NCBI GenBank assembly: GCA_963575745.1
Contig: CAUYUJ010017969.1
Span: 26,001-90,000, forward strand
DNA: 64,000 bases
Origin: Prorocentrum cordatum
Lineage: Eukaryota > Sar > Dinophyceae > Prorocentrales > Prorocentraceae
Reading direction: 5' to 3'
Shown here in pieces: positions 9,738 through 39,099 of this stretch. Below the pieces are notes generated by a model that was not told the DNA's origin, did not search any database, and was given only the letters and a program-made list of their open reading frames with translations. How positions within the stretch are numbered: position 1 is the first letter of the stretch; every line of letters starts with the position of its first letter. A program made the translations under genes and the position numbers.

Positions 9738-11299
9738 CTAGGCGGGCAGGGAGGGGTGTGCGGCCCATGCGCTGCTCATAACCGTACTGCTGCTGACCAC
9801 CTCGTGCAGGCCTCGGTGCTGGCGCACTGCTGGCGTCGATGCTGGCGTCGGCGCTGGCATCGACGATGTCGCTGTCGTGGAGCTCACGGTGGAAAGGGCC
9901 GTGGGAGTCCCACTGCTCGAAGTGGTACTCATGGTCACCGCCGTGCTCATGATTGTGCCCACACTGGTGGTGAACGTGTTGCTCAAGGTCACGCTGCCGC
10001 TCGTCTGAGAGGCACTGCTGGTCAGCGAAGCGCTGGAAGTCCTGGTGGTCAACGATGCCGTTGTCGTGGAGTTCAGCCTGGAAGTGGCCGTGGACGTCAC
10101 ATGGTTGGAGATGGTACTCGCCGTCGTCACCGTGCTGGTGTTCGTGCCCGTGCTGGTCGTGGCAATGCTGCCCGTGGTCATGCTGCCGCTCGCCAGGGCC
10201 GCACTGCTAGTCACCGAAGCGTTGAAAGTCCGTGTGGTCGACGGTGTTGTTGTCGTGAAGATCAGCGTGGAAGTGGCCGCGGATGTCGCCCTGCTCGAGC
10301 TGGTAGTCGCCGTCGTCGCCGTGCTCGTGTCCGTGCCCGTACGCGTAGTGACCGTGTTGCTCGAAATCCCGCTGCCGCTCGCCTGCGACGCACTGCTACT
10401 CACCGAGGCGCTGGAGGACCCCGTGGTCGACGATGCCGCTGTCGTCGGGCTTACCGTTGAAATGGCCTTGAGAATCCCACCGCTCGAACAGGTAGTCGCC
10501 GTCGTCGCCGAGCCCGTGCCCGTGCACGCACCGGTCGTCACCGTGCTGCTCGAGGTCCCGCTGCCGCCGGTCTGCGACGCACTGCTAGTCATCGAAACGC
10601 TGAACTCCCAAGGGTCGACGTTACTGGTGCCGTGGAGCTCACCGTAGAAGTGACCATTGACGTCGCACTGCTCGAGCTGGTAGTCGCCGTCGTCGCCGTG
10701 CTCGTGCCCGTGCCCGTACCGGTCGCGACTGTGCTGATCGCGGTCACGCTGCCGCTCGTCTGCGACGCGCTGCTCGTCAGCGAAGCGCTGGGAGTCCCCG
10801 CGGTCGACGATGCCATTGTCGTGGGGCTCACCGTGGAAGCAGTCGTGGACGTCGCTCCGCTCGAGCTGGTACTCGTTGTCGTCGCCGTGCCCGTGATGGT
10901 GCGCGTGCGCGTCGCGACCGTGCTGCTCGAGGTCGCGTTGCCGCTTGTCTGCGACGTACTGCTGGTCCGCGAAGAACTGGAAGTCCCGGTGGTCGGCGAC
11001 GCTGTTGACCGGGCGCTCACCGTGGGAGCGGCCGTGGACGTTGCAATGCTCGAGCTGGTACCCGCCGTCGTCGCCGAGCGCATGCTCGTCCTGCCTACCT
11101 CGCGACTCCGATGGCGCGGAGGGGTAGAAGAGGGGGAGGACAATGGGGAGGAGAAGCAAGACGAGGAGAGGGAGATGGAGGGGCCCAGCGTAGGCGTGGA
11201 CGTTGGTACCGGCGTCTGCGTTGGCGTCGGCTCTGGCGTCGGTGCCGTTGCAGTCGTTGTCGTAGGCGTCGGTGCCGGCGTGGGCGTGGACGCTGGCAT
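9738..11299 (-). pseudogene. Ser/Thr-rich repetitive protein, frameshifted (mucin- or wall-like)
   Basis: Two minus-strand frames, 11299-10589 and about 10600-9738, read as one Ser/Thr-rich protein if joined by a single-base shift near 10590-10600. The chain repeats blocks such as SASLTSSASQTSGSVT and ATSTVSSTT every 63 residues, from the 189-bp DNA repeat. Such chains are typical of O-glycosylated surface or wall proteins. No signal peptide or anchor was found, and the composition may only reflect the repeat. Several pyrimidine tracts followed by CAG/GAG suggest introns on this strand. It could be a host gene split by the YR element, or a non-coding expansion. Confidence 0.4.
9832..11090. 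repeat. 189-bp tandem repeat, about 6-7 diverged copies
   Basis: The phrase GTCAGCGAAGCG and its variants occurs at 10021, 10210, 10399, 10588, 10776 and 10965. The spacing is 189, 189, 189, 188 and 189 bp. The unit equals 63 codons, and divergence between copies largely keeps the minus Ser/Thr frame. The single 188-bp interval is where the reading frame breaks. Confidence 0.85.
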
Positions 11300-12031
11300 T
11301 GTGCTGCTGGTCCCGTTCGCGGACGTCGACGCAGAGCTGCTGCACTCAGCTGACGTGCTCCCTGTTGCCCCTGTGGTCCCAGTCGCCCTGCCTGCCTCGC
11401 GACTCCGATGGGATGGAAGTGAAAGTGAAGAGGAGCTGGAGGAGGAGGAGGAGGAGGAGGAGGAGGAGGAGGAGGAAGGGGAAGTGTGGGAGGGGGAGGA
11501 CGACGAGAAGGAGAAGCAGCTTCAATGGGGAAGGGGACATGAGGACGAGAAGCAGGAGACGGCGTCGTGCCGCTGGTTCCACTGATATTCGTCGAACTCG
11601 TCGCCCTCGCGGATGTACTGGTGATTGTGGCCGTGGTGGTACGCGACCCTGCGATGACCGACGACGTCGTGCCTACTGTTGATGTCGAAGTGAGCGGCAC
11701 ACCGAAGGATCTGATCTCGATGGTGTGGAGGAAGGTAGGAGGAGGACCATAACGACGACGGCGACCAGAAGGAGAGGGACTGGAAGGAGGTAGAGGCGGC
11801 GGAAGACCCAGAGGAGGAGGGGAAGGGGGAGTAGGAGGGGGAGCAAATGAAAGAGGCAGGGGCGGAGGAGGGGTAGCGGGACGAGGGGAAGAGGGCAGGG
11901 AGGAGTAGGACGACCAGATGGTGCTGTTGGTGCCCGTCGTGATGCTGAACGTCGTCATGCTCCTGGTTCCCGCTGCGATGCTGGCCGTCGTCGCGCGTGT
12001 CTGCCGATCGCCTGCCTGCGAGCTCCGACGA

Positions 12032-12064
<33 letters not shown>

Positions 12065-12122
12065 GAGGAGGAGGAGGAGGAGGAGGAGAAGGAGGAGGAG
12101 GAGGAGGAGGAGGAGGAGGAGG
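11300..12122 (-). other. Pro/Ser/Thr-rich candidate exons and GAG/CTC tracts
   Basis: Minus-strand sense here is Pro-rich, then Thr-rich (TSTSTVGTTSSVIAGS near 11650-11700), and ends in long pyrimidine tracts at 11426-11475 and 12039-12122 (GAG triplets on the plus strand). Each tract is followed on the minus strand by a similar ...CGGAGTCGCGAGGCAGGCAG or GGAGCTCGCAGGCAGGCG border, like a polypyrimidine tract plus AG acceptor. A similar border occurs near 11095. Exons of the same Ser/Thr-rich gene are a reasonable guess, but no exon can be bounded securely. Confidence 0.35.
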
Positions 12123-12280
12123 ATTCTCCCGCTCGCGCGCCAGCGAGCTGTCTCCGAGCGCGGCCGCGGCGTGCGCGCGCGGGGCGGCCCAAAATGGGCA
12201 GGCCCGTCCCGCGCGCTCAAGCCGGGGCGCCGCGCGTCAGACGGTGGAGTCCGTCTGGTCGCCGAGGTCGGCGAGGCAGC
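12123..12280 (-). repeat. Split direct repeat B2 (158 bp), 3' terminus of the YR element
   Basis: Identical over 158 bp to B1 at 12369-12526. Its outer end (ATTCTCCCGC on the plus strand) abuts the GGA tract. A 34-bp purine-rich spacer separates it from A2. Confidence 0.9.
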
Positions 12281-12314
12281 GCCCGTCAGCCTTAGAGTGG
12301 GAGAGGAGGGAGGG

Positions 12315-12369
12315 GGGCTGAGAAGCTGCGGAGACAGCAGGAGCTTGCTCACAGAGAATAGAAGAAGCA
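12315..12369 (-). repeat. Split direct repeat A2 (55 bp)
   Basis: Identical to A1 at 22447-22501. It starts GGGCTGAGAAGCTGCGGAGA on the plus strand. It abuts B1 with base 12369 shared, giving the same junction that circularised element ends would form. Confidence 0.9.
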
Positions 12370-12526
12370 TTCTCCCGCTCGCGCGCCAGCGAGCTGTCTC
12401 CGAGCGCGGCCGCGGCGTGCGCGCGCGGGGCGGCCCAAAATGGGCAGGCCCGTCCCGCGCGCTCAAGCCGGGGCGCCGCGCGTCAGACGGTGGAGTCCGT
12501 CTGGTCGCCGAGGTCGGCGAGGCAGC
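12369..12526 (-). repeat. Split direct repeat B1 (158 bp)
   Basis: Identical to B2. It lies 11 bp after the recombinase stop codon (12538-12540), so the 3' end is very compact. Confidence 0.9.
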
Positions 12527-12537
12527 CATACCCGTGC

Positions 12538-13375
12538 TCAAGGACCTTGCGAAGTGACAAGGTTTTGGCGGGCGGCCGCAAGCAGGGCAGGCCAAGCGGC
12601 GGGGCCGACTTGGAGGAACGAAGCGACGAGGCGGTCGCTGGCGGTGGCGAAGAACAAGATACGAGCCCGCGCGTGCTCGGGGAGCGCAGCAAGAACTGTA
12701 GAGGCGGCGGCGGCTTGCAGGTAGCGTTCGGCACTGGAAGCCTGACGCCAGCGCCCTCGCCAGAAGACGCGAGGGACGTCTTCCGTGGCGATATAAAAGT
12801 CTGTTGCGCCAGAGCCCCGCAGACAAGCGGGCGTCAGGTTGAGCCCCTGACCTGCTTTGGCAAGGGGGACGCCCAGAGCCAAAAGCAGATGATTCCACCG
12901 AGTACGGAAGCCGCTCGCACCGAAGGGGGCGAGAGGATCGGTGGAAGCCAGCCTCCCAAACACAAGATTCAATATCTTCACCGTGCCCCGATCGGAGCAG
13001 CGAGCATGTTGCGTCGGGTACGTTCTTCTGGTCTTTGGAACAAGAATCGAAAGAAAAGCATCTCCTTCGACTTCGAGACGGTCGCACGGAAGCGACAGGT
13101 CACAGCGGCGGGACGCCAGCAGTTCGCCAGGCCTGAGGAACATCGTGAAGCCCATGAGCAGCAGTGCCGCCATCACAGGCCAGTCCCAGGCGAGACAGAG
13201 CCCGACCATGGCGCGCAGCAGCGCGCGTGGCAAGGGGGGACGGAGCTTTGGCGGCTCCGCAAGCTTCCATTGTTTCGCTACGTCCCAAGCTTCTGTCAGA
13301 AAGGCCTTCCAATGCGGATGGGCGCTCTGGATTCCCAAGATGGCGTGGACCAAAATATAATGGGGAAACCTGCAT
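12538..13375 (-). CDS. Tyrosine recombinase catalytic domain (ORF3 frame) of the YR element
   Basis: This frame is entered at -1 from ORF2 near 13362-13368. It carries TMFLRPGELLASRRCDL (first Arg, about 13130), LVPKTRRTYP (possible catalytic Lys), TPACLRGSGATDFY (second Arg of the HxxR box, with Ala at the usual His, about 12815-12833), FWRGRW and SAERYLQ with the nucleophilic Tyr (about 12716-12739). The SAM-like helices just upstream (LTSAYLDRRSRSIDAFELWL, about 13475-13530) lie in the ORF2 frame. A complete recombinase therefore needs the frameshift or one more C in the run. It should integrate circular cDNA at short matching sequences. Confidence 0.8.
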
Positions 13376-16300
13376 CATGAAGCCACACGCCGAAGGTCGC
13401 TAGGAAACGGGCGAGAAGTATCCCGCTTCGGTAAAGCGTGGCGGGTGGCACGCCAGTGTGTTCTGCTAACCACAGCTCGAAGGCATCAATCGATCTCGAA
13501 CGACGGTCGAGATACGCGGAGGTGAGGTGAGAATCGCGCACGAAAGGAGTGCGCGGAGGGCGAGCGGGCGCGGGCGGCGCAGCTCCACTAAGCCCTTGGC
13601 CGGCGGTCGGCGCCGCGGCTCCCAGAGAGATGCAGAGGCCGCAGACGCACCACAGGATGAGCGCAGGGCGGCCAGGGCTCGGAGAGCTGATGAGTGTGGC
13701 GGCCCTCCTGCGCCTGGACGCGTAGAAGGGCGGAACGAGGGCGTCCCGCCCGTCGGTCTCGAACCCCGACGCCTCAGCCAGCATCGCCCGCGCCGAGCTG
13801 AAGGACCCGCCCATGTTACGGTAGGCGCGGCGAGCCCCTGCTTCGATCTCGGCTGGCAGAGCGTCCCCTTTCTCGAGGGTCGGCCAGTCAAAAGGCGGGC
13901 GCGGCTCGGCACGCGCCGCTGCGGCTGCTTCGGCCAGCTCGGAACGAGCTGCCGAGGACGTGAGGCCCGAATGATGAGGCACGGGCACCACCTCCGCGAA
14001 GGCGTCGAGGATCTCGGACGGAGGGGAATGGGATCCCCACAGCGCTGCTGGGATGGCGCCGTGACTGTCCTGCACGTGGTACAGAAAGTCGAAAAGGCAG
14101 GCCAGTTTGCCCGCGCGCCGCCGCTGCTCGATCTTTGAGCCGAGCCCGATGCCACGGATGGCGCCCGCTCCCATGGCCTGGAGGTCAGCATGTGCGGGAA
14201 TAGCCTCGGGCTCGACGACGGCCGCGTAAGGATGCAGCCACGAGGCCTCGTCGATCGGCTCGGCGCCGCCTGTCTGAAACAGGCGCTTGTAGGCGTGCAG
14301 GGCCCGCAGGAGGCAGTGCAGGTCATCCTTGCCTTCGGGCTCGGCGGCCCCTGCGGGTGCGAAAGTCCTCAGCCACGACGCCGCACTCTGGAAGGCAGCT
14401 TGCCAGGCGGGGCCCCACCTCACTACCGTGATCTTCTCGCCGCCGATGTTGAGGCGCCACGCTAGGGCGCTCGCGGCCCCTGGAGGCAGGGGCTGCTCAG
14501 CGGCCGCCGAGGCCGTGCGCCGCGCTGCGAAGGCTGCAGCCGCGGCGCTTTCAGCGTCACCGCTGTGAGCGCCGCTGAGGGGCAGCTCGGGTTCAGAAGC
14601 TCGGCCACGCACGAAGCCGCTCGAAGACCCCCCTTCCTCGGCGGCACGCCCTCCTCCCTGCGGGGCCGCAACAGCATCGCTGGAAGAGCGCATGCCTACC
14701 GAAGTCGGAGTAGCCTGAGCAGCGGAGTCCGCGCGGGAGCCGGCTGGCCGCTGCGAGGTGGCGGGGCTCGGGCGACGCTTCGGAGCGACTCGAGGAGAGC
14801 GCACCGCGCGACGCCCAAGCGGCGCACGTGAGCGCGACGCCGCACGCCCCCTAGAGTGGTGACGGGGTGGCGACGGCGGCGGGGGAACGGGCCGCGGCGG
14901 CTCGGGGCCAGCACGCGGGCCGCGGCCCCGAGAGCGGCTGCGAGCCGCAGCGCGAGCGGCGGGCGGAGAGGTCTCCGCGCGGCGCGGGAAGGCCGCCTGC
15001 AAGCGGCGGAGGACCTCGGGGTTCAGGCCCGCCACGACGCGCTCGAGGTCCACCGAGGAGTCAGTGAGAGCACTCAAAACGACGTCCTCGAGCTCCGTCG
15101 GAGAGTCCTCCTCGCACGCGGGCTCCGCTCTCGAACGGCTGCGGGCGCTCGCTGGAGGGGACCCCTCAGGAGTGTGCGGGCCCTCCGATGCCTCTCCCGC
15201 CGGCGGCCCCGACGGCTCCTCAGGCGCGCTCGAGACGTCGATGGGAAGCGAGGAGCCGCCTCCCGAGGGCGAAATGTGATCAGTCCCGTACGGGTTCGGC
15301 GACCGCGTACGGCTGCGGGCAGGGCTGCGGCTCCGCGGTGGAGGGCCCACTCCCGCGGCGGAGCTGGGGCGTGCGGCACCTGCCCAGTGGCGCGCATTAG
15401 CTGTGCGACGCGACCTGCGGCCAGGCGTCGTGGCGGCTCCCTCTTCAAGGGCGGGAAGCGCCGCCGTCGAAGCCCGCCGCTGCTTCTTGGCGCGCTTGTT
15501 GCGCGCGGCGCCCGTGCGCGAGGCGGAGTGTGGTGCGTGACCACCGCGATTGGGCTGGTCCTCGACAGCCTCCTCCCGCGGGCCCAAACGGGCGCGGACA
15601 GCGCGCCCCTCGCGACGGCTGAAGCTGGACGCTGGGTCGTCGGCAGGCCTCGCCAAGGCGCGCGGGTCCTCAGCCTCCACATCGGCCAGGGAGCGCCCCG
15701 TGGACGACGCGGGGGCGTCCCCAGCACGAGCGGCACGATCCGCATTGGCGAGGCCCGTCGAGACCTCAGCGTTGTGCAGGACGGCGCGCAGAGTTTTGCG
15801 CCAATCCCGACCCAGCTGGACGGGAGCCGTACGTGGCAAGCCCGCGGCCTCACGACTGGCGGCCTCGCGCAAGCGGCGGAAGTAGGCGCGGTCGGCCATC
15901 CCCTCCGCGAGCTCGGCGCGAGCGACGGCACGCTCGCCTTCGCCGCGTGCTGGAGCCTGCACCGTGCGCCTTGTGGCGTCGGCCCGCGCGGTGCGGAGCG
16001 CGTCGAGCTCCACGCGGCCGCGCGACACGGCGGAGGCGAGGATGGCATCGGACTCAGCCGCCCGCGTCGCGAGGGCGGACGAAACCCTGCTCGGGAGAGG
16101 CGCACCCGAGGCGGGGAGGGCAGCCCGAGGGGCCAGCTCGGCACTCGCCAGGGCGACCCGCGAAGAAACCGCCTCCTCGAGCGCCTGAAGGGCCATGGCC
16201 GACCCAGGAGCCAGCTTGCCCTTGCGGGCGCCCTTCCCTGCCGCTTTTGCCTGGGCGAAGGCGCGAGCGGCAGGACCGTCACCGCCCGTGCTAGGAGCAG

Positions 16301-19300
16301 CGGGCGGCGCGGCGGCCTGCGAGAGCGCCTGGAGCAGCACTGACTTGGCGTCACAGAGCTGCTTCCACTTGAGCGCGCGGGCTGCACGCTCGCCAGCCCC
16401 CAAGTGCGCAGGGGTCCTGTCTGGATGGTAGACTAAGGACTGGCGCCTGAAGGCGGCTTCGATGGTGCTGCGCGAAGCCCCGTCCACGACGCCAAGCAGC
16501 TGGCGAGACGCGCTCACCCTGGCCGCTCGCTGGAAGACGCGGGGGGTAGCAGCCGTGGCCCCCTTTGGCGCTTCCTGCGAGCCGACGCGCGACGAGCCCC
16601 CCCCGATCGCAGGCGGAGGGGCCGCTGCGGCCTTGGAGCGGAGGGCCAGGGGTGGCGGGCGCTTGGCGGCTGGGGGAGCCGAACCAGCGCTGGCGGCGGC
16701 AGGGTCGGGGCCGCGCGCGCCGCCCTCCGAGAATACAGGCGCCTTGGGCGAGGCGTCTGCTGTGGGCGTGAAACGCCGGCCGCTGTCAGCGAAGAGCGCG
16801 TTGCGAGGCCCGCGACGCTCTCCGCTGGCGAGAGCAGCTTCGCTGTTGCTCTCGGCGGCGCCCGAGGGGTCAAGGGCGTCGCCCTGGGCGCCGTCGCCGG
16901 CGGCGTCGGCGGCCATGCCCGCACCCAACGGGAGGGTGGGGGCGGCCGCCCAACGGTGGCTGAGCACCCCCTCGGGGCCTCGAGCCACAAGCTGCGCAAC
17001 AAAACGGCCCCAGAGACAAGTAGGGAATGCCGAGCGAGAGTCGGCGTACGCGATGCAATCAAAGCGAGTAAATTCTCCTCTCTCTGCTTCCACTAACCAG
17101 GCGGGAGGGGCACGGGACGGGGGCCTCACCGCGCGGTTGCGCGTGGGATCGTCGGCCCTATGCACGTCCGTGGGCACGTACATGCCTCCCATATATAAAC
17201 CTCCTCCTATCACATAGGGCAAAGTGGTCGAGAGAACATGTGATAAACCAGGAGAGCTGCTGCGCCCGTGCGCGGTCGCGCCCAAAGCTACTTTTGAATC
17301 CAAGAGGACGGGGATCCGAGAGTCGGGGAGGCGAACACAACAGTATTTGCACAGACTCTTATACACGGTTGTCTCAAGGATATTGATGTGACGAGGCATG
17401 CGAAACTCCCATTTGTACGCGAGCCGAAAGCGCAGCGACTCTGATAGCTCGGTGACCCAGCGCGGCGCGACAGGGGGCTCAAGAGAAGGGAGCCCCAGGT
17501 CGTGATGCAGCTGGGTGAGCTCAGGGCCCACGGGCACGCCGCGGCTGAGCACGGCGAGGAGGCTCCGATTGTGCAGAATCGTGTGCCACCCCCCGTGCTC
17601 CGATCTGCGCCACAGCTCGGCAGAGAGCTGCGGGCTGATGGGAGCGCGGACAACGCCCCCCCAGCCGAGAGACGCGTCCGCACCGAACAACTCGGGGCAA
17701 GGCTGCGCCCGAAGGTCGGTTATAGCCGTAAAGGCTAGGAAGGTGCAGGCCAAGAGCTCGTCGCGAACATAAGGGGGCAGGTCGTATTCGATGCCGTCCT
17801 CGGTCGCCAGGCGCGACAAGAAGTTGTAGACGTGCGTAAAGATGGCGAGTAACGGGCGGCGATAGAGGAAGACCTGGACCCAGCAGCCCACCAGAGAGGC
17901 TAGCAGGGAGCGGGTGGTGATCCCGAGGTAGATTTGGATCAGGGTCAGCCTGCACAGGGCCACTGTCCGCACAAGAGGAGCGCAGACGATGCCTATGCGC
18001 CCCTCCACCTCGGCGCCCACCACCACTTTGTGCGTTTCACCGCGCGCGCGCTTGCCTGGATGCTGTATCAGGCCCACGCGCGGGTAGCCCGCATCACACG
18101 CGGCAAAGACCTCACGATCACGGCGACACGGGTCGTCGGGGCGAGGAGCGGAGCCACGCCACGAGAGCTTCTGAAAACCTGTGTGGTCATCAATATTCAG
18201 CATCTCGACAAACGGGCCCCGCGGAAAGGGCGAGCGGTGGACAACCTGCTCGTGAGGCCTCAAAGCCCCGAAGCTGTGCAAGACGCCTTCATGCGCAGAG
18301 TTGGCAATCTCCACAGCCATGTTGTCGCCCATCGCCAGAGCATTGAGGCAGGGCGCGACATCCACACCCTCCAGCTCGGGGCGCCAGGCTCGAAATGCCT
18401 TGAAACGAGAGGATGGCAGGCGAACGCGCAGGGCGTTACGTCTGGCACGCGCGGGAGGGACGCGGAACGTGTAGTAAAATTCCCGAAGGTCGTCACAAGA
18501 AACTGCCAGCCATTCCCCAGGTGCCAGCCCCAAACGGCACAGGAGGAAACCTTGGCCAAGGCGCTGGGTGCTGGAAGAAATTGAAGCACAGCGGCTGTTC
18601 ACAACCGTGGGGTTCAGGATCAGCCTGTCGAAATCGCTGTCCTTCGGTACCCTGAAAGCTCCACAGGCTTCATCCCAGGCGAGGTCCGAAGCAGGAGTCA
18701 GGTACAGGGCGCCGCAGGCATCCCACTTCTGGAGTAGGGCCCACAGCTCGGCGCGGTCCATATGGACGCGCGCTCCCTTCTGGCCAGCAGGCCACTCTGA
18801 TGCCGGTAGCCGCATAGCCTCAGGATCGAGGAAAGCTTCGCGGACTCGCGCGTCAGAGAGGAAGGGAACGGGATCAAACTCTGGCGAATAATCCCACTTG
18901 ATGCGAGATGCCCTGACTTTCAAATCGAAGGGCTCGGCCTGGGTGGAGTCCCAAGCCGCCGCAGTCGCCAACGACCCAGGCACCGGAGGAGCGCCGGTCG
19001 GGCAGTGCCGCATGGGGGCAGGCACAGAAGAAGAGGAGGTGAAAGAGGCCTCCAGAGCTGCAACATGGGTGGCCAGGCCATGGAGCGAGACCTCGGTGGA
19101 GTCGAACTTGGCGAAAGCCCGACCTAGGTCGCTCTTGCCGCCACGGGCAAGGCGAACTGCGATCCGACACAACCGTTCGATACGGGTGCGGACGCCCTCC
19201 TGGCAGGGCGAGACCGTGGCACGGACGCGAGCCTCGGCGGGAGCGAGGCTGGGATGACCCAAGGTGAGCCAGTTCAACGCAATAACGGAATACTGCGCGA

Positions 19301-19965
19301 GCGTCCGCGCCGCGCGCCGCAGTCTCCAGCGCTCCCTGCGCCTCGCCGACAAGCCGTCAGGCGGGGGACCAAGAGGAGGAGCAGGCGGGCACGGCCAAGG
19401 ATCGCGGGGAGGCGGCCCCAAAAGGTACGGACCGTCCCTGTCCATTGCACGCATAGATGAGCGGGAGAAAGAACCAAGAGAACATCGAGCACCCATCCCA
19501 ACCTGGGACAGCGCTGCTGCCCAGTGGGTGATATCAATGTTCGCGCCTGGGAACAGGCGCAGCAAGGCAGACAAGTCAGCGACGAATGGCGCGACTTTGG
19601 CAAGAGCAGCAGAGGTGCCTGAAGGAGAGCAAGCACCAGCAGGGACACCAACCTCAGGGGCTGCAGGCCCCCTGGAGGGCGCGCTCGACTGAGGCAAGCG
19701 TCGGCCAAAATGGCCCGAGGGATCCGAGAAGCGGTTCGAAGCAGAGCGAAGGGCGTGGTGGCGGAACGTACTCCTCCCTGCGGGGCCGCAACAGCATCGC
19801 TGGAAGAGCGCATTCCTACCCTCACGCCCTCGCTGTGCCCAAACGCGCCTAGCAACCGCAACAGCGTCGGTGCAGTCTGTGTGCGGCGGCGTACCCCGGC
19901 CCCCCGCAGGCCCACCCTTCCAGGTGGCGGGCGCCGAAGGCGCCTTCAGTCTTTCTTGGGCACCG
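13296..19965 (-). CDS. pol: Pol-like ORF2: RT, RNase H, J-domain, Ser/Arg region, recombinase N-terminus
   Basis: About 2,220 codons without a stop, in the -1 frame of gag. RT: AFRVPKDSDFDRLILNP (about 18605-18655), motif A CDDLREFYYTF (about 18470-18505), motif B MGDNMAVEIAN (about 18300-18335), motif C NIDDHTG (about 18178-18200). RNase H: GADASLGWGG (about 17657-17690), the ILETTVYKS Glu, LLDSKVALGA and HRADDPTRN (about 17137-17162), so D, E, D and D are all present. A J-domain follows (separate entry), then Ala- and Ser/Arg-rich sequence, a conserved-looking block (WRLNIGGEKITVVRWGPAW, about 14400-14470), a hydrophobic segment (about 13600-13720) and the recombinase SAM-like N-terminus. 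No ATG marks the start; expression by frameshift from gag or from an internal start is possible. Confidence 0.8.
13362..13368 (-). promoter_or_regulatory. Candidate -1 frameshift heptamer T-TTC-CCC
   Basis: In the ORF2 frame the codons are GGT TTC CCC ATT. The heptamer TTTCCCC fits X-XXY-YYZ, and slipping back one base gives CCC CAT TAT ATT, exactly the frame of the recombinase core. CCC slippage is usually weak, and a one-base deletion from a C5 run explains the same data. Confidence 0.4.
14651..14700 (-). repeat. Internal 50-bp direct repeat, copy 1
   Basis: Matches 19771-19820 at 49 of 50 positions (CTCCTCCCTGCGGGGCCGCA... start). Both copies lie in the ORF2 frame range, 5,120 bp apart and in the same orientation. 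Here it encodes GMRSSSDAVAAPQGG. Confidence 0.85.
16315..16522 (-). other. J-domain (DnaJ-like) inside the retrotransposon pol frame
   Basis: Within ORF2, about 69 residues read SASRQLLGVVDGASRSTIEA, then AFRRQSLVYHPDRTP and LKWKQLCDAKSVLLQAL. This matches the J-domain plan: L-L-G-V, a helix II basic patch, the invariant HPD loop (H 16425-16427, P 16422-16424, D 16419-16421) and helix III with the xAxxVL pattern. In the family the HPD tripeptide stimulates the Hsp70 ATPase. It sits between RNase H and the Ser/Arg-rich part, which is not a known retroelement module position. Recruitment of host Hsp70 for particle assembly or integration is an inference. Confidence 0.75.
19771..19820 (-). repeat. 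Internal 50-bp direct repeat, copy 2
   Basis: The partner of 14651-14700, with one mismatch (T for G at 19814). It lies just downstream of the gag stop and is read in a different frame from copy 1, so selection on the peptide does not explain the identity. Confidence 0.85.
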
Positions 19966-21886
19966 CCTTCGGCGCCTTGGAAGCACCCTGGGTCTTGAAG
20001 GGCTGCTTCGCAACCTTGGGCTGCTTGGGCTGGTGAGGAGGGTGCTTGGGGAGCGCGACGGCGCGCTCGGCGTCGAGACGCGCCCGAAATGCTTGCAGCT
20101 CCTTCACGTATTCGCCCTGCGCCGACAGCCAACGAGGGTCCACCAGAGGTGAAAACGGGGTCTGGGCCTCGCGCTCCGTGTGAAGACTCGTCACGCGACA
20201 CGGGGGAGGCTCCAGTCCTGTGAGGAACCAGGCGGCTTCGAGATAGCCGCGGTCCCCCGCCAGTTGGTCGATGAACATGCACTGACACGTCAGTAGAGTC
20301 TGGACTCTCTCGGGATTGCCCTCTTCGCAGGCCCGCCACAGCTCGGCGCTGAGAAAGGCGAAATGCGTCAGCAACTCGTGCGTCGTCGGCTGAGCCCCCA
20401 ACGGACTGTGCTCCCGAAAGTACTGATGCATGGCCATGGGGGTCACGGCGCTGACTTCCACGCCTAGGACGCGAGCCAGATTCTCCTTCATCAGCCCTCG
20501 CACGTCGGGGCCGTGCTGTATCAGCGCTTGCTGCCACTCGCGCCTCCGAGCAATGCCCCCCATCTGAGCCGATACGGGCGCGGGCTCGCCCGAGCTCGCG
20601 GGCGGAGATTGAGCTGAGTCGCTCAGGGTCCCCAGCAGCGGATGGACGGTTGGACGATGGCCCCGCCCCTGCTGCAGAAGGAGGGACTGGTGCAGGCACT
20701 GTAGCATGAGGCTGAAGTCCGTCGGATTGGCCGTATGGGGCGGCTCTAACCCGTCGGCGCCGCCCGCCTCGGCAAAGCCGTCGACCGCAGCGGGATGGGC
20801 TAACCCAGGTGGCGGCGGAGGGCCCATCGTTCCGAAGCCCGACGAAGGGGCCCGAGGGACAGCCAGAGAGCGCGCCTTTTCCCACGCCGAGACCAGCGCG
20901 GAGGTCGGACCCTTGGGACGCGCGGAGACCCGCTGCGGGGCCACGGGCGCGTGGGACAGGACGGCCTCGATCCCCGCAGGGTCCAGCCCGAGGCGCACCG
21001 CTTCGTCGCTGAAGAGCTGAGGCACCTCGGGCCGATCGCTCCGAGCAGGCGGCTCGGGGCCCAGCGATTCGGGTCGGCCGACCATCGTGGAGGCTGCGTG
21101 GGCTGCAAGCAAAGCGCGCATTTCGGCAGCTACTTCGGCACGGGTCATAGGAGCCCCGTCGTCCAGAGCCGCCGCAGGGGCACCAGGAGCGATCGAAGCG
21201 GGGCCCGCGACCCGTGGCGGCGCGGCTGCGCCCGTGCGCTTCGGGGGCGGGCCGCGAGGCGCTCCAGCGTCCGCGGGAGATCGCGCACTTGGGGCCGGGC
21301 GTTCGGCGTCCTCGTCGGCCGCGAACCCTTCGGGCTCTTCCATCTCGTCGGCAGAGTGATAGGGAGTAGCCCGATCGGCCCCTGGGAGCGGCTCCTCCCC
21401 TGCGGTAGGCGGGGCGCCGTGCAAGCGTGCGTAACCCTCGCGAAGCACCCGAACCCCTGAAGGGTGTGGCCAATAGACGCGGCCCCGCACCTCGGCGAAG
21501 GGGACGATGGCCGCGTCCTCGCCGACCTCTAGAGGGTAAAGCGACTCGAGCTCGAGCTCTGCAACCTCGATATCCACGACGAGGACGGAGGCAGTAGTGG
21601 CGAGCGGCCGCGAAGCGGCCCCCTGGAGCTGGGCGTCCACTAGCTGGAAGGGGCCTATCATCCCCGCAAAACCCCCCGCCTCGGCAGCCTCGAGCTCCGC
21701 CGTAGAGCGAAAGGCGCCAGGCAGGGCCAGGAGGATGCCCCCTTCTCGAGACGCGAGGGGGATAGCTGCCCAGCTGGTGTCGCCGTCGTCTAAACGCCAA
21801 CGTGCGTAGCCGCGAGCCGTGGGAGCTGCGAATGGGTAGAGCTCGGGCCATAGAGGCCCTCCGCCAACTGGTGGCAGCTCGGCCAT
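19946..21886 (-). CDS. gag: Gag-like ORF1 of the YR retrotransposon
   Basis: A 646-residue frame from ATG 21886 to the stop at 19946. The N-terminal half is Pro/Ala/Glu-rich with one structured block (residues about 20-150). The C-terminal third is helical and better conserved in character: LLTCQCMFIDQLAGDRGYLEAAW, split here as LLTCQCMFIDQ and LAGDRGYLEAAW, then FSPLVDPRWLSAQGEYV. It ends in a Lys/Pro-rich tail (KQPKVAKQPFKTQG) suited to RNA binding. No CCHC knuckle is present. Position and tail suggest the particle-forming protein. A longer open frame covers this region in the pol frame, but its Arg/Ala composition marks it as a shadow. The gag stop overlaps the pol frame, which lies at -1. 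Confidence 0.65.
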   Translation of the reverse strand: MAELPPVGGGPLWPELYPFAAPTARGYARWRLDDGDTSWAAIPLASREGGILLALPGAFRSTAELEAAEAGGFAGMIGPFQLVDAQLQGAASRPLATTASVLVVDIEVAELELESLYPLEVGEDAAIVPFAEVRGRVYWPHPSGVRVLREGYARLHGAPPTAGEEPLPGADRATPYHSADEMEEPEGFAADEDAERPAPSARSPADAGAPRGPPPKRTGAAAPPRVAGPASIAPGAPAAALDDGAPMTRAEVAAEMRALLAAHAASTMVGRPESLGPEPPARSDRPEVPQLFSDEAVRLGLDPAGIEAVLSHAPVAPQRVSARPKGPTSALVSAWEKARSLAVPRAPSSGFGTMGPPPPPGLAHPAAVDGFAEAGGADGLEPPHTANPTDFSLMLQCLHQSLLLQQGRGHRPTVHPLLGTLSDSAQSPPASSGEPAPVSAQMGGIARRREWQQALIQHGPDVRGLMKENLARVLGVEVSAVTPMAMHQYFREHSPLGAQPTTHELLTHFAFLSAELWRACEEGNPERVQTLLTCQCMFIDQLAGDRGYLEAAWFLTGLEPPPCRVTSLHTEREAQTPFSPLVDPRWLSAQGEYVKELQAFRARLDAERAVALPKHPPHQPKQPKVAKQPFKTQGASKAPKAVPKKD

Positions 21887-21945
21887 CAATGGGCGCAGCC
21901 GAGGGAGCTGCTCCCTGAATGCTGGGCGTCTGCCCGCACGAGCGC

Positions 21946-22410
21946 TCAGGGCCGCGGCGGAACCCCGTAAGCCAGCGCTCGCGCCGCACGGCGGTCCTGC
22001 TCAAAGGGGGCAGGAACCGCTCCGCGCGGCCAGGCGGAGGCCCTGAGCCTCCGCCACGCGTACGGGCCCAGCAGCCCGATGCAGCAGCCTGCGCAGGCGC
22101 TGCACGCGGCCGTCACCCCAAGGAGGGCGACGACCGTGCTGAGCAGCCAGGGCGAAACCCCGCCGCTCAGATCCACCGCCAGCCCGAGGCACACGGTGGG
22201 GCAGGCGGAACCCGCCGAAGGGAGGGGGCAGAAAGCCCCCTCACCCTCGGACGAGTCCGCCTGCTGGATGGACCAGGCCGGCGCAGGAGGCCCTGGGTCC
22301 TGAAGAACAGAGAAAGGGGCAGACACGAGCCGCTCGTAGAGCGCGGCCCGCAGCCCCCTGAAGAAGATCTCCCCAGCGCCTCCGAGAGCCGCGTGTGCGA
22401 GCGCCTGCAT
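21946..22410 (-). CDS. ORF0 of the YR element: small predicted membrane protein
   Basis: A 154-codon frame with ATG at 22410, just inside A1, ending at 21946 before the gag-like ORF. Residues 1-35 could form an amphipathic helix. A hydrophobic stretch at about 87-118 contains WLLSTVVALLGVTAACSACA and then GCCIGLLG, long enough for one or two membrane passes and rich in Cys. A basic tail follows (YAWRRLRASAWPRG). The open frame extends upstream through A1 into Pro-rich repeat DNA. No family was recognised. Supporting points are its position and its -1 frame relation to gag. High GC makes chance frames of this length possible. Confidence 0.4.
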   Translation of the reverse strand: MQALAHAALGGAGEIFFRGLRAALYERLVSAPFSVLQDPGPPAPAWSIQQADSSEGEGAFCPLPSAGSACPTVCLGLAVDLSGGVSPWLLSTVVALLGVTAACSACAGCCIGLLGPYAWRRLRASAWPRGAVPAPFEQDRRAARALAYGVPPRP

Positions 22411-22446
22411 AAGGCGTCCGCACGCGCGGCCGACGGGGGGGCACTT

Positions 22447-22501
22447 GGGCTGAGAAGCTGCGGAGACAGCAGGAGCTTGCTCACAGAGAATAGAAGAAGC
22501 A
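22447..22501 (-). repeat. Split direct repeat A1 (55 bp), 5' terminus of the YR element
   Basis: Identical to A2. Its outer end (AGAAGAAGCA on the plus strand) is followed directly by GGA triplets. Transcription of the element should begin in or near here, although no promoter motif is recognisable. Confidence 0.9.
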
Positions 22502-22565
22502 GGAGGAGGAGGAGGAGGAGGAGGAGGAGGCGGAGGAGCAGGAGGAGGAGGAGGAAGAGGAGGAG
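22502..22565. repeat. GGA triplet tract flanking the YR element
   Basis: Continuation of the GGA tract interrupted at 12122. On the minus strand it is a pyrimidine tract that directly precedes A1. Confidence 0.85.
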
Positions 22566-22992
22566 TTCCCATCGGAATTCCCACCCAGCCGCAGCGGCTG
22601 TCAGTTTGCCGCGCTTCGCCCGCGGCGGCGCGGCCGCCCCGCGCGGGCCGCGCGCGGGCCGCGGCCCGGCTCGGGCGGGCCGCGCCTCTTGGGGCCGCCC
22701 ACCTCTCCACGCGCGCCCTGCGGAGGCGCGCGGAGCCTCGGGGCCGAGCGCGCTCTCTACGAAGGACGCGGTCCACACCCGTGACCCCCAGCACCCCGCG
22801 CAGCGCCCCCAGCACGCGAGCGCTGGGCACCCTGCACGACATGCCTTCCAGGGAAGGTGGCAGTAGCTGCATCGTCCAGTTCAGTCGCACTGCTCGTCGT
22901 GCTGGCCACAATGGTGTTGCTGTCGACGTGCTGGTCACGGTGGTGCTGCTGCCGTGGGTGCTGCACGTCGTGTTGGTCAATGTCGCGCTGCT

Positions 22993-23031
<39 letters not shown>

Positions 23032-23559
23032 ATTGCTGGTTGGTCGCCGCGCTGAGGAGTCGTTGCGCCCAGATATCTCCTTCTCCTCTCCTCGGCGCTT
23101 TCCTCTGCTGTCGCTATGGCTGGAGGTGGCCCCAGGGTCTCGTCCCTCTCCGCGACGGCACTGCATCGGCTGCGCGGCTCGTCTTGCTGGGTTGGAGCAA
23201 CCAGGTTCCGCGGGCGACGGCCTTCAAATGCATCTCCGCGCTGACTTCCCCCAACTGCCCCCGCACGTGGACGCAGGGGGCGCTCGTCCTCCCCCCCCCC
23301 CCCCCCCCAAGCCGATGTTCGCAGCAGGTTGTGTCCTGAGAGTACTGCTGGTTCTGGTGCTGAACGCAACGTCGCGCTGCTGCTGGTGCTCAATGTCGCC
23401 ATGCTGCCGTGCTGGTTGCTGTCCTTCTGCGTGCGTCTCGGGCTGGGCGTCGTCGCTGGGCACGCCAGCGCTGCGTCCGTCGCTGCCGTCGGGCTGGTTG
23501 CGGGCGCTGGACTCGCGCGCTGCGATGTCGAGCCAAAGTTGCAGCATGTACATGAGGCT
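22566..23559 (-). other. Ser/Thr-rich fragments, CT microsatellite and poly-C
   Basis: Minus-strand sense contains short Thr/Ser-rich runs (SSTTVTSTSTATP near 22880-22960 and SMATLSTSSSATLR near 23350-23420), like the sequence left of the YR insertion. A CT repeat lies at 22994-23030 and poly-C at 23291-23308. No intact exon can be drawn. Confidence 0.4.
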
Positions 23560-23597
23560 GTTGTACCCAGGGCGCCCTTTGCATGATTTACGCATCT

Positions 23598-23720
23598 TCT
23601 CTGAGATGCACTCCGTGGTAGTAGCGCCACATTGCCTGCAGACCCAGCGTGTCTCTGCACGCATGAAGATGAGCGGGTGGCTGCGGTGTGCAGCGTGGCC
23701 GTGCTGGGTGATGGAATGCC
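23598..23720 (-). pseudogene. LINE 3 C-terminal zinc-finger remnant
   Basis: Reads HPLIFMRAETRWVCRQCGAT, then ECISEKMRKSCKGRPGYNS. The pattern H...C-x2-C-G...C-x-G-x-P is a recurring C-terminal motif of LINE-type polyproteins in dinoflagellate-like genomes, as far as I can recall it. It is short and separated from RNase H by a frame change. Confidence 0.45.
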
Positions 23721-24249
23721 CTTGGCTCGGTGGTGGTCCAGCGCAGCCCTGTTGGAACCAAGTTTGCACTCCTTCGAAGCTGGTGCCCCGTCCCACTCGT
23801 TAGGCGCAGCACTTGCGCACCCACCCTTTCCCACGTCGTGGCCTTGTCAGGCCGTGGGCGGTGAGTGGGCGTCGACCGTCAGGCTGTGGTGGTCCGTCGA
23901 CAAAGTAGCCCCGTCGACGTCTACGCTGCGCCCGTCGTTGCTTCAACTGGGCTCTTCGCGCTGCTCGAACTTCGTGGTCCTCTGTTGGGCGTCGGTCCAC
24001 GGCGTCGACTGCGGCGGCGGCGACGCGGCGTCGTGCAAGTGCTGCCGTAGCGTTGACCCAGACGTAGCATGAGATTTGGGCGTCGCCGATGTCGCTTTCG
24101 CGGGCTGCTCTCTCTGCAAGCTTGTCCACCTGGCTGTTGCCGTACCACGCGCGGAGGGGAAACCCTTGCGCTTTGCTTCCTCCCAAGCAAGGTGACTGTT
24201 GATGTGGTGGACTGCTATGCGCGATGGCCCTTGGTCGTCGCAGAGGTTG
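23721..24249 (-). other. LINE 3 interval between RNase H and C-terminal finger
   Basis: Minus-strand frames here give basic, Ala/Arg-rich sequence (LARRRVAAAAVDAVDRR) with no recognisable domain. It probably belongs to the element. Confidence 0.35.
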
Positions 24250-38453: not shown

Positions 38454-38463
38454 CCAGGGCACG

Positions 38464-38930
38464 GTGACCAGGGCCAAGGCACTCATCGAGGCCCAGAGAC
38501 CTCGGCGAGTTCACATCTCTCCGCCGTGCACGCCTTTCTCCATCCTTCAGGCCCTGAATCAGAAGAGTGACCAGCAGATCGCGAGCCTGAAGAAGAAGAG
38601 TGCCTGGGGTACCAAAGTCATGGACAACATGATCGAGGTCGGCCTGCACGCACTACGCCAGGGATGCGAGCTCAGTCTCGAGCAGCCTGCGAACGCCACC
38701 AGCTGGAGGACCGTCCAGTCACTGATGAACCTTCGAAAGCAGCTGTACGAGGTCACCACACTAGGATGCGCCTGGGGCATGCGAGACAGCGAGACCGGAC
38801 GGGCAGCGTACAAGAACTGGAGGTTCCTGGTGTCCAACCAGCGGGCAGCAGAGGCCCTGGAACGGAAGTGCCCTCGAGACCAAACGCATCGACAGCTGGA
38901 AGAGTCAAAGCGGGTAGCCGACTCCGCCAA
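38464..38930 (+). pseudogene. Cytosine-methyltransferase-like catalytic half in the copia polyprotein
   Basis: The frame reads RRVHISPPCTPFSILQALNQ (about 38496-38555), like motif IV (PC with the catalytic Cys, then x-FS) of C5 cytosine methyltransferases. It is followed about 45 residues later by ELSLEQPANATSW (about 38668-38706), like the Glu-containing motif VI. With the SAM-type motif upstream, the order fits a DNA cytosine methyltransferase or a relative. Retrotransposon-encoded cytosine methyltransferases are known from dinoflagellates. Target-recognition motifs were not identified, so activity is uncertain even for an intact copy. Confidence 0.55.
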
Positions 38931-39099
38931 GTACCCGGAGGCACCGTGCCGTGCTCTCAGCCAGGAGGTGCTGGCCCAGGCCCAGGTGTCGGGGATCGCC
39001 GCTGGCGTGAACGAGATCGAGGGCGTGCTGAAGGAGCTGACGGAGGGACAACTCAAACAGGCCGAGGCCCTCACCCTCGAGAAGGACACCGAGACGGAG

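Follow-up and report, generated by a model that had tools for sequence, protein, structure and literature searches.

A probable DIRS-order retrotransposon family with split direct repeats, a J-domain in Pol and a bias for three-letter microsatellites in the dinoflagellate Prorocentrum cordatum

Introduction

Retrotransposons that encode a tyrosine recombinase (YR) are poorly understood, and their circularisation and choice of insertion site have mostly been modelled, not shown. PAT/Ngaro/VIPER-type elements carry gag, reverse transcriptase (RT)-RNase H and YR genes within split direct repeats, arranged as A1-[open reading frames (ORFs)]-B1-A2-B2. This split-repeat layout is already known in dinoflagellates: the report on SymbioDIRS-Dnmt3 from Symbiodinium describes a YR retrotransposon with A-coding-B-A-B repeats, a divergent RT poorly fitted by Pfam, a Dnmt3 in Pol and a separate YR ORF (PMC5890265). 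Here, we analyse an element of comparable build on the minus strand of Prorocentrum cordatum DNA, at positions 12123 to 22501 of a 64,000-nucleotide stretch (the window; contig CAUYUJ010017969.1 of assembly GCA_963575745.1, positions 26,001 to 90,000). We consider it a probable member of a high-copy, DIRS-order family of YR retrotransposons with split direct repeats, and we propose a replication cycle for it.

DIRS1-like elements have inverted terminal repeats and internal complementary regions; their integration, which leaves no target duplication, has been modelled as recombination of a short junction with an identical short target (3 bp there, often ATT) (PMC3266345). Tyrosine transposases of the Tn916/Tn1549 type move bacterial DNA elements without reverse transcription, and in Tn1549/Tn916 transposition the crossover is melted and non-homologous and requires identity at a single base (PMC5871717). 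Besides, the RT of hepadnaviruses is reported to work with the host's Hsp40 and Hsp70 (PMC10138296).

Results

The element is bounded by exact split repeats that rejoin at an internal junction

Positions 22447..22501, minus strand: A1, 5' terminal repeat (55 nt); exact repeat, end fixed in copies
Positions 12369..12526, minus strand: B1 (158 nt); exact repeat of B2
Positions 12315..12369, minus strand: A2 (55 nt); exact repeat of A1, base 12369 being common to A2 and B1
Positions 12281..12314, minus strand: spacer between A2 and B2 (34 nt)
Positions 12123..12280, minus strand: B2, 3' terminal repeat (158 nt); exact repeat, end fixed in copies

The original prediction had placed two pairs of exact repeats here in a PAT/Ngaro-type arrangement, and this is borne out: A1 equals A2 and B1 equals B2 letter for letter, in the minus-strand order A1, ORFs, B1, A2, spacer, B2. 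The 34-nt spacer had gone unmentioned; it is retained inside the B2-A2-B1 block across the sampled copies. The outer ends read ...AGG|ATTCTCCC at B2 and GAAGAAGC-A|GG... at A1. Joining them gives GAAGAAGC-A-TTCTCCC, which, as had also been proposed, is the B1-A2 junction itself, with one base (A) in common. Between positions 11000 and 24000, we found neither inverted pairs of at least 25 nt, and thus no counterpart of the DIRS1-like inverted terminal repeats and internal complementary regions, nor, in a repeat search, any long terminal repeat beyond A and B. Rfam at gathering thresholds gave no match. A spliced-leader-like stretch at 19699-19714 (3 mismatches) is one of two such matches in the window, and at least two arose in 8 of 100 shuffles.

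Copies throughout the assembly share base-exact ends

We searched the 4.13-Gb assembly with the 404-nt B2-A2-B1 block and scored 40 places (window included, of 697 first-look candidates) at 99-100% identity, answering the call for further copies with the same A/B repeats. The flanks of the block mostly differ between these places while the ends are the same, which rules out an assembly duplication, the outcome that would have undone the original prediction; the exactness and recurrence of the repeats likewise exclude chance. A parallel search with the YR scored 139 places of 6148. Copies were thus sampled via the block or the YR, and any lacking A/B repeats were reachable by the YR route alone and not sought further.

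Among the 39 block places examined (C3425, which starts at a contig end, was left out), B2 begins at the same base in all 39, window included. A1 was found within the fetched stretch in 31 places, and all 31 agree on its last base; six places showed none and two lay too near a contig end to fetch, and one flank is common to C5506 and C2092. For a second sample, 60 of 100 prepared sites were fetched; the B2 end was recognisable in 56 (of the other four, one has an N and one a changed end), its first base was kept in 54 of these 56, and an A stood at position 0 in 54 of 56. Three copies, L127, L152 and L153 (C13651, C8687 and C16733), have an identical 30-nt left flank, reflecting either a duplicated region or insertions into a repeat.

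The original prediction had called the element young. Read from repeat identity, this claim is weakened: four copies of a diverged subfamily agree with the window at 401-402 of 404 positions of the B2-A2-B1 block, with the adjacent 200-nt stretches only ~89-96% identical. The A/B repeats are therefore under strong constraint or exchanged between elements, and their identity is ruled out as an age clock, since the block stays near-identical even in this subfamily, despite a difference of ~4-11% in the neighbouring 200-nt stretches. The coding part of the window copy, in turn, is 99.7% identical to that of copy L078, which is a better sign of recent activity than repeat identity.

The coding region combines a divergent Pol with a recombinase fused to it in open copies

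Positions 19946..21886, minus strand: ORF1, called gag-like from its position alone (646 aa; coordinates include the stop); dN/dS, position
Positions 13299..19496, minus strand: Pol frame from the first Met after ORF1; in L076, one frame continues through the YR
Positions 17727..18926, minus strand: reverse transcriptase domain, by motifs; dN/dS 0.025
Positions 17127..17726, minus strand: RNase H domain, by motifs, with D-E-D-D conserved and without the insert of many relatives; dN/dS 0.066
Positions 16317..16517, minus strand: DnaJ J-domain with HPD motif; Pfam PF00226, PDB DnaJB1, dN/dS
Positions 13758..14474, minus strand: conserved domain before the YR, a fold without Pfam match; dN/dS 0.09-0.13
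Positions 12541..13550, minus strand: tyrosine recombinase; in the window copy, the N-terminal part lies in the Pol frame to about 13362 and the catalytic part in another frame

ORF1 has no credible Pfam match; judged by its ratio of nonsynonymous to synonymous substitution rates (dN/dS; 0.163 against L076, 0.013 for aa 501-600), it evolves as a protein. The RT, RNase H and YR that had been predicted between the repeats fare unequally. The YR is upheld by a modelled Xer/Cre fold together with conserved columns, while profile matches of the YR rows to PDB sequences were nil. RT and RNase H are recognised by motifs: the RT residues D185, D285 and D286 (numbering of window:17121-19043:-) are invariant in the rows that reach them, and the RNase H residues are kept in 22/24 (D456), 13/13 (E557), 13/14 (D582) and 13/13 (D631) rows, with pairwise RNase H dN/dS of 0.04 to 0.11.

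The element had also been called intact, which it is not, since one base in a homopolymer run interrupts its YR frame. Pol was read in four copies, and L076 alone among them is open from end to end, in one frame that includes the YR. Across the 139 scored YR copies, this frame measures at least 2890 aa in 69 (stop to stop, so gag overlap is included), only 278 aa in two (the window copy and C14270) and lies in between in 68. Pol and YR thus share one frame in L076 and probably in many other copies. A programmed frame change in the YR is ruled out, as the YR frame continues upstream past the point in question in 137 of 139 copies.

The one-base length difference of the window copy recurs in C14270 (L013) at the identical homopolymer column, yet the two are not each other's closest copies. 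Their outer flanks are unlike, and over about 1.9 kb the window copy differs by 5 substitutions from C14270 and by 0 from L008, so that we favour a recurrent indel or an error in reading the homopolymer over common descent. Such a reading error is possible in the window copy.

Protein-database homologues of the part from J-domain to YR were absent at E 0.001 among 8000 scored candidates, which, with an Ala-rich query and a narrow length window, is weak evidence of absence; a search of viral contigs gave no match. A 61-nt direct repeat (93%) lies within the element at 14640-14700 and 19760-19820, in different reading frames, one unit ahead of the RT and the other ahead of the pre-YR domain; both units also occur in L076, L077 and L078. 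In the relative P0015, the stretch separating RNase H from the YR contains a 2A-like motif (DIERNPGP, residues about 780-800), which might release the YR from a fused polyprotein; the window's Pol frame contains no NPGP.

Pol carries a J-domain under purifying selection

Pfam PF00226 (DnaJ) matches the window copy at 1.3e-5 (25.7 bits) and L076 at 9e-6 (26.1 bits), and L076 matches DnaJB1 in PDB at 8.9e-4. The HPD motif is retained in all four copies read. Substitutions indicate that the J-domain is under purifying selection: its dN/dS is 0.064 (window-L076), 0.031 (window-L077) and 0.094 (L076-L077), compared with 0.24 to 0.49 in the linkers on either side (J-domain against linkers in a single pair: Fisher p 0.014 or 0.032, according to how values are rounded; the pairs have sequences in common). 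In a genome search, all 150 scored matches span residues 2-67 of 67 at no less than 95% identity and are stop-free, these being the best 150 of 715 candidates, such that decayed ones are under-sampled. The relative P0001, 85% identical over the RT, ends in what by eye appears to be the start of the same J-domain.

We found no J-domain in a retroelement in the open-licence literature, judged mostly by title and abstract, and an article on accessory domains (PMC6338049) contains neither DnaJ, J-domain, chaperone nor Hsp. The dinoflagellate or diatom papers checked mention DnaJ apart from retroelements. To our knowledge, a J-domain inside Pol would be without precedent.

Insertions favour phased three-letter arrays and leave one shared base

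Positions 12040..12122, plus strand: target microsatellite (GGA)n, flank on the B2 side
Positions 22502..22565, plus strand: target microsatellite (AGG)n, flank on the A1 side
Positions 12354..12374, no strand: junction core GAGAAT-N9-ATTCTC, inverted arms
Positions 12329-12338 and 12393-12402, no strand: outer 10-nt perfect inverted arms flanking the junction core

The window copy sits in a microsatellite, and so do many others. In the first sample, left flanks were microsatellite-like at 22 of 36 sites, as compared to 133 of 1221 windows taken from these neighbourhoods and to 39 of 2133 taken from the 64-kb stretch itself (the strict site pattern of this sample excluded C15855 and C2092). 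We next consider 80 distinct B2-side sites, from which C14276 was dropped and in which sites with the same last 25 nt were collapsed, merging separate insertions into identical arrays. Period-3 arrays occupy 41 of them (16 ATG, 12 AGG, 10 ATC, 2 AGC and 1 AAC), 37 are low-repeat and 2 fall between the classes. Strand and phase of the arrays are nearly fixed, with 12 AGG and 0 CCT, and an A at -3 in 38/41 and at -6 in 39/41.

A related signature is found at the 37 low-repeat sites, some of which keep weak or other repeats, e.g. (AT)n. Here, A occupies -6 in 30 (background 0.29, p 8e-11) and -4 in 27 (p 4e-8), and A or T occupies -3 in 32 (p 4e-7; A alone in 18, p 0.009), the positions having been chosen after the counts were seen. 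In the first sample, position +1 is a T at 21 of 31 sites; 11 of these 31 have a left flank that is not microsatellite-like, and 8 of the 11 carry the T. The low-repeat preference can thus be written A-N-A-W-N-N-A, often followed by T. The element's own junction, AGAAGC-A-T, has the preferred target bases at -6, -4, 0 and +1 and partly at -3, and does not at -5, -2 and -1. Flank comparison at 31 places showed that only one base, an A, can be shared; no target duplication beyond it was seen.

The inner and outer inverted pairs are centred at 12364 and 12365.5, respectively, and in each, one arm lies in A and the other in B. A centred 10-nt pair occurred in 1 of 3000 shuffles and a 6-nt pair in 380 of 3000 (a test set up after the pairs had been seen), and the inner 6-nt pair taken alone is weak. 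Within the element, A and B arms meet only at the B1-A2 junction, as they also would in a circle; this arrangement fits a circular intermediate with a complete recombination core.

Relatives frequently carry an insert that the window copy lacks

In an RT tree of 46 rows (the relatives with a long enough RT match; P0001 was left out), the row nearest to the window is P0002 (100/99). Named relatives derive from Amphidinium carterae (P0014, P0024) and Polarella glacialis (P0045). Twenty-nine of the 46 rows match an insert of ~210 aa between two parts of the RNase H, and the window nests in that set. We take the insert to be methyltransferase-like from its motifs (E-x-P, and an invariant Cys preceded by P or V); it has no Pfam or PDB match in the relatives. 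It is absent from the window copy and P0001, and P0045 has no match to it. A parsimony reading of these sequences would have the insert lost in the window's line, most near rows being fragments unable to tell. Elsewhere in the window, positions 38458-38976 on the plus strand resemble, in translation, the methyltransferase-like insert of P0041 (27%, E 4e-5) and may be what is left of a related retroelement.

Discussion

The locus shares with PAT/Ngaro/VIPER-type elements the order of its split direct repeats, with a B1-A2 junction equal to the joined outer ends, and the set of gag-like ORF, motif-based RT-RNase H and YR, a likeness drawn from layout. It differs from them by the 34 nt between A2 and B2, the J-domain, the fused YR and the microsatellite sites. 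With DIRS1-like elements, it has in common an insertion without target duplication at a short junction, whereas its repeats are direct. The original prediction had overlooked the J-domain, the fusion of the YR to Pol in open copies, the insertion into microsatellites and SymbioDIRS-Dnmt3 as a known dinoflagellate relative.

We propose the following cycle. An RNA lacking the outer ends would give rise to gag and to a Pol polyprotein comprising RT, RNase H, J-domain, the conserved pre-YR domain and YR. Reverse transcription would use the internal B1-A2 stretch, so that the ends become joined in a circle. The YR may then recombine the core of this circle (AGAAGC-A-T, with inverted arms from A and B) with a genomic site that shares few bases. 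The microsatellite bias would then follow from arrays of (ANN)n, which would place A's in register at -6, -3 and 0; target bases would remain at the B2 side and the element core at the A1 side, only the A being shared. By analogy, the closest working counterpart of this integration would be Tn1549/Tn916 transposition. As for the J-domain, it may bring host Hsp70 to the Pol particle, the simplest role being to fold or activate the RT or to remodel the particle, and would thereby supply in cis the Hsp40 role for which the hepadnaviral RT uses the host's protein. On balance, we lean slightly towards the composite picture of a retroelement with its own Hsp70-recruiting J-domain, a methyltransferase-like insert lost from RNase H and a YR that seeks (ANN)n by near-homology-free recombination, a eukaryotic parallel to the Tn916 type.

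Several observations weigh against this account. At low-repeat targets, the element's G at -5 (8/37), G at -2 (9/37) and C at -1 (8/37) are not favoured, and the A at -4 is missing from the common arrays, which do provide A at -6, -3 and 0. Swapped target and element cores were seen in 0 of 95 places, while random resolution of a 6-7-bp heteroduplex predicts them; an exchange limited to one or two bases, or biased repair, may account for their absence. The J-domain scores of 25.7-26.1 bits fall just below the curated Pfam cut-off of 27.8. Three of the four copies read (window, L077 and L078) are each broken over Pol. The identity of RT and RNase H is motif-based: no Pfam profile for either was found at E 0.05 in the element and the relatives scanned, the RT rows match no RT profile in Pfam or PDB, and the weak Pfam matches obtained were to the C-terminal domain of a viral polymerase (1/33 rows, 0.059) and to Phage_integrase (2/33, best 0.061). 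Finally, the element is known here from genome sequence, not from a circle, RNA, protein or empty site.

Could the J-domain be a passive passenger, i.e. a captured host exon in an otherwise ordinary split-repeat YR element? Its shortness and its position between poorly conserved linkers would fit, as would the absence of a J-domain partner in retroelements from the literature searched. We nevertheless regard this as unlikely, given a dN/dS of 0.031-0.094 next to linkers at 0.24-0.49 (albeit from non-independent pairs), the HPD motif in 4/4 copies and the full length of 150/150 stop-free matches, the best of 715 candidates. That the family is simply SymbioDIRS under another name, and hence without novelty, we hold to be decidedly unlikely. 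The same A-coding-B-A-B layout in a dinoflagellate (PMC5890265) speaks for it, as does the nesting of the window RT among relatives with the methyltransferase-like insert; the window family, however, lacks that insert, has an additional J-domain and carries the YR in the Pol frame in open copies. No DNA-methylase Pfam match appeared in the window Pol at E up to 1, and the single open Pol-YR frame of L076 departs from the separate YR ORF given in the 2018 text, the main text of which does not contain the word DnaJ (PMC5890265).

The microsatellite bias might, alternatively, be driven by chromatin or by the repeats themselves, through array instability or breaks, rather than by the recombinase core. 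Neighbourhoods are indeed repeat-rich (133 of 1221 nearby windows are microsatellite-like), and 41 of 80 sites are period-3. However, the arrays hardly vary in strand and phase, an A at -6 is likewise typical of low-repeat sites, and break repair is not expected to yield one fixed end and one shared base, so that we judge this explanation very improbable. An LTR-like (long terminal repeat) or LINE-like (long interspersed nuclear element) retroelement, or an assembly artefact with an accidental A/B pattern, is barely credible: an RT too divergent for Pfam leaves room for it, yet the same ends recur at many loci, the YR fold is predicted, and 11000-24000 holds no inverted pair of at least 25 nt and no long terminal repeat beyond A/B. 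Our preference thus stays with a DIRS-order YR element whose recombinase would choose its targets.

Neither microsatellite-directed YR integration nor the combination of a J-domain Pol with insertion into three-letter microsatellites was found described in the literature searched (open-licence, mostly titles and abstracts). With many near-identical copies and base-exact ends, the attachment site of such an element becomes readable from the genome: it has a core and inverted arms divided between A and B, and its target preference would account for the bias towards microsatellites. If the proposed role of the J-domain is true, this retroelement would bring its own co-chaperone, where hepadnaviruses use host Hsp40 and Hsp70 for their RT (PMC10138296).

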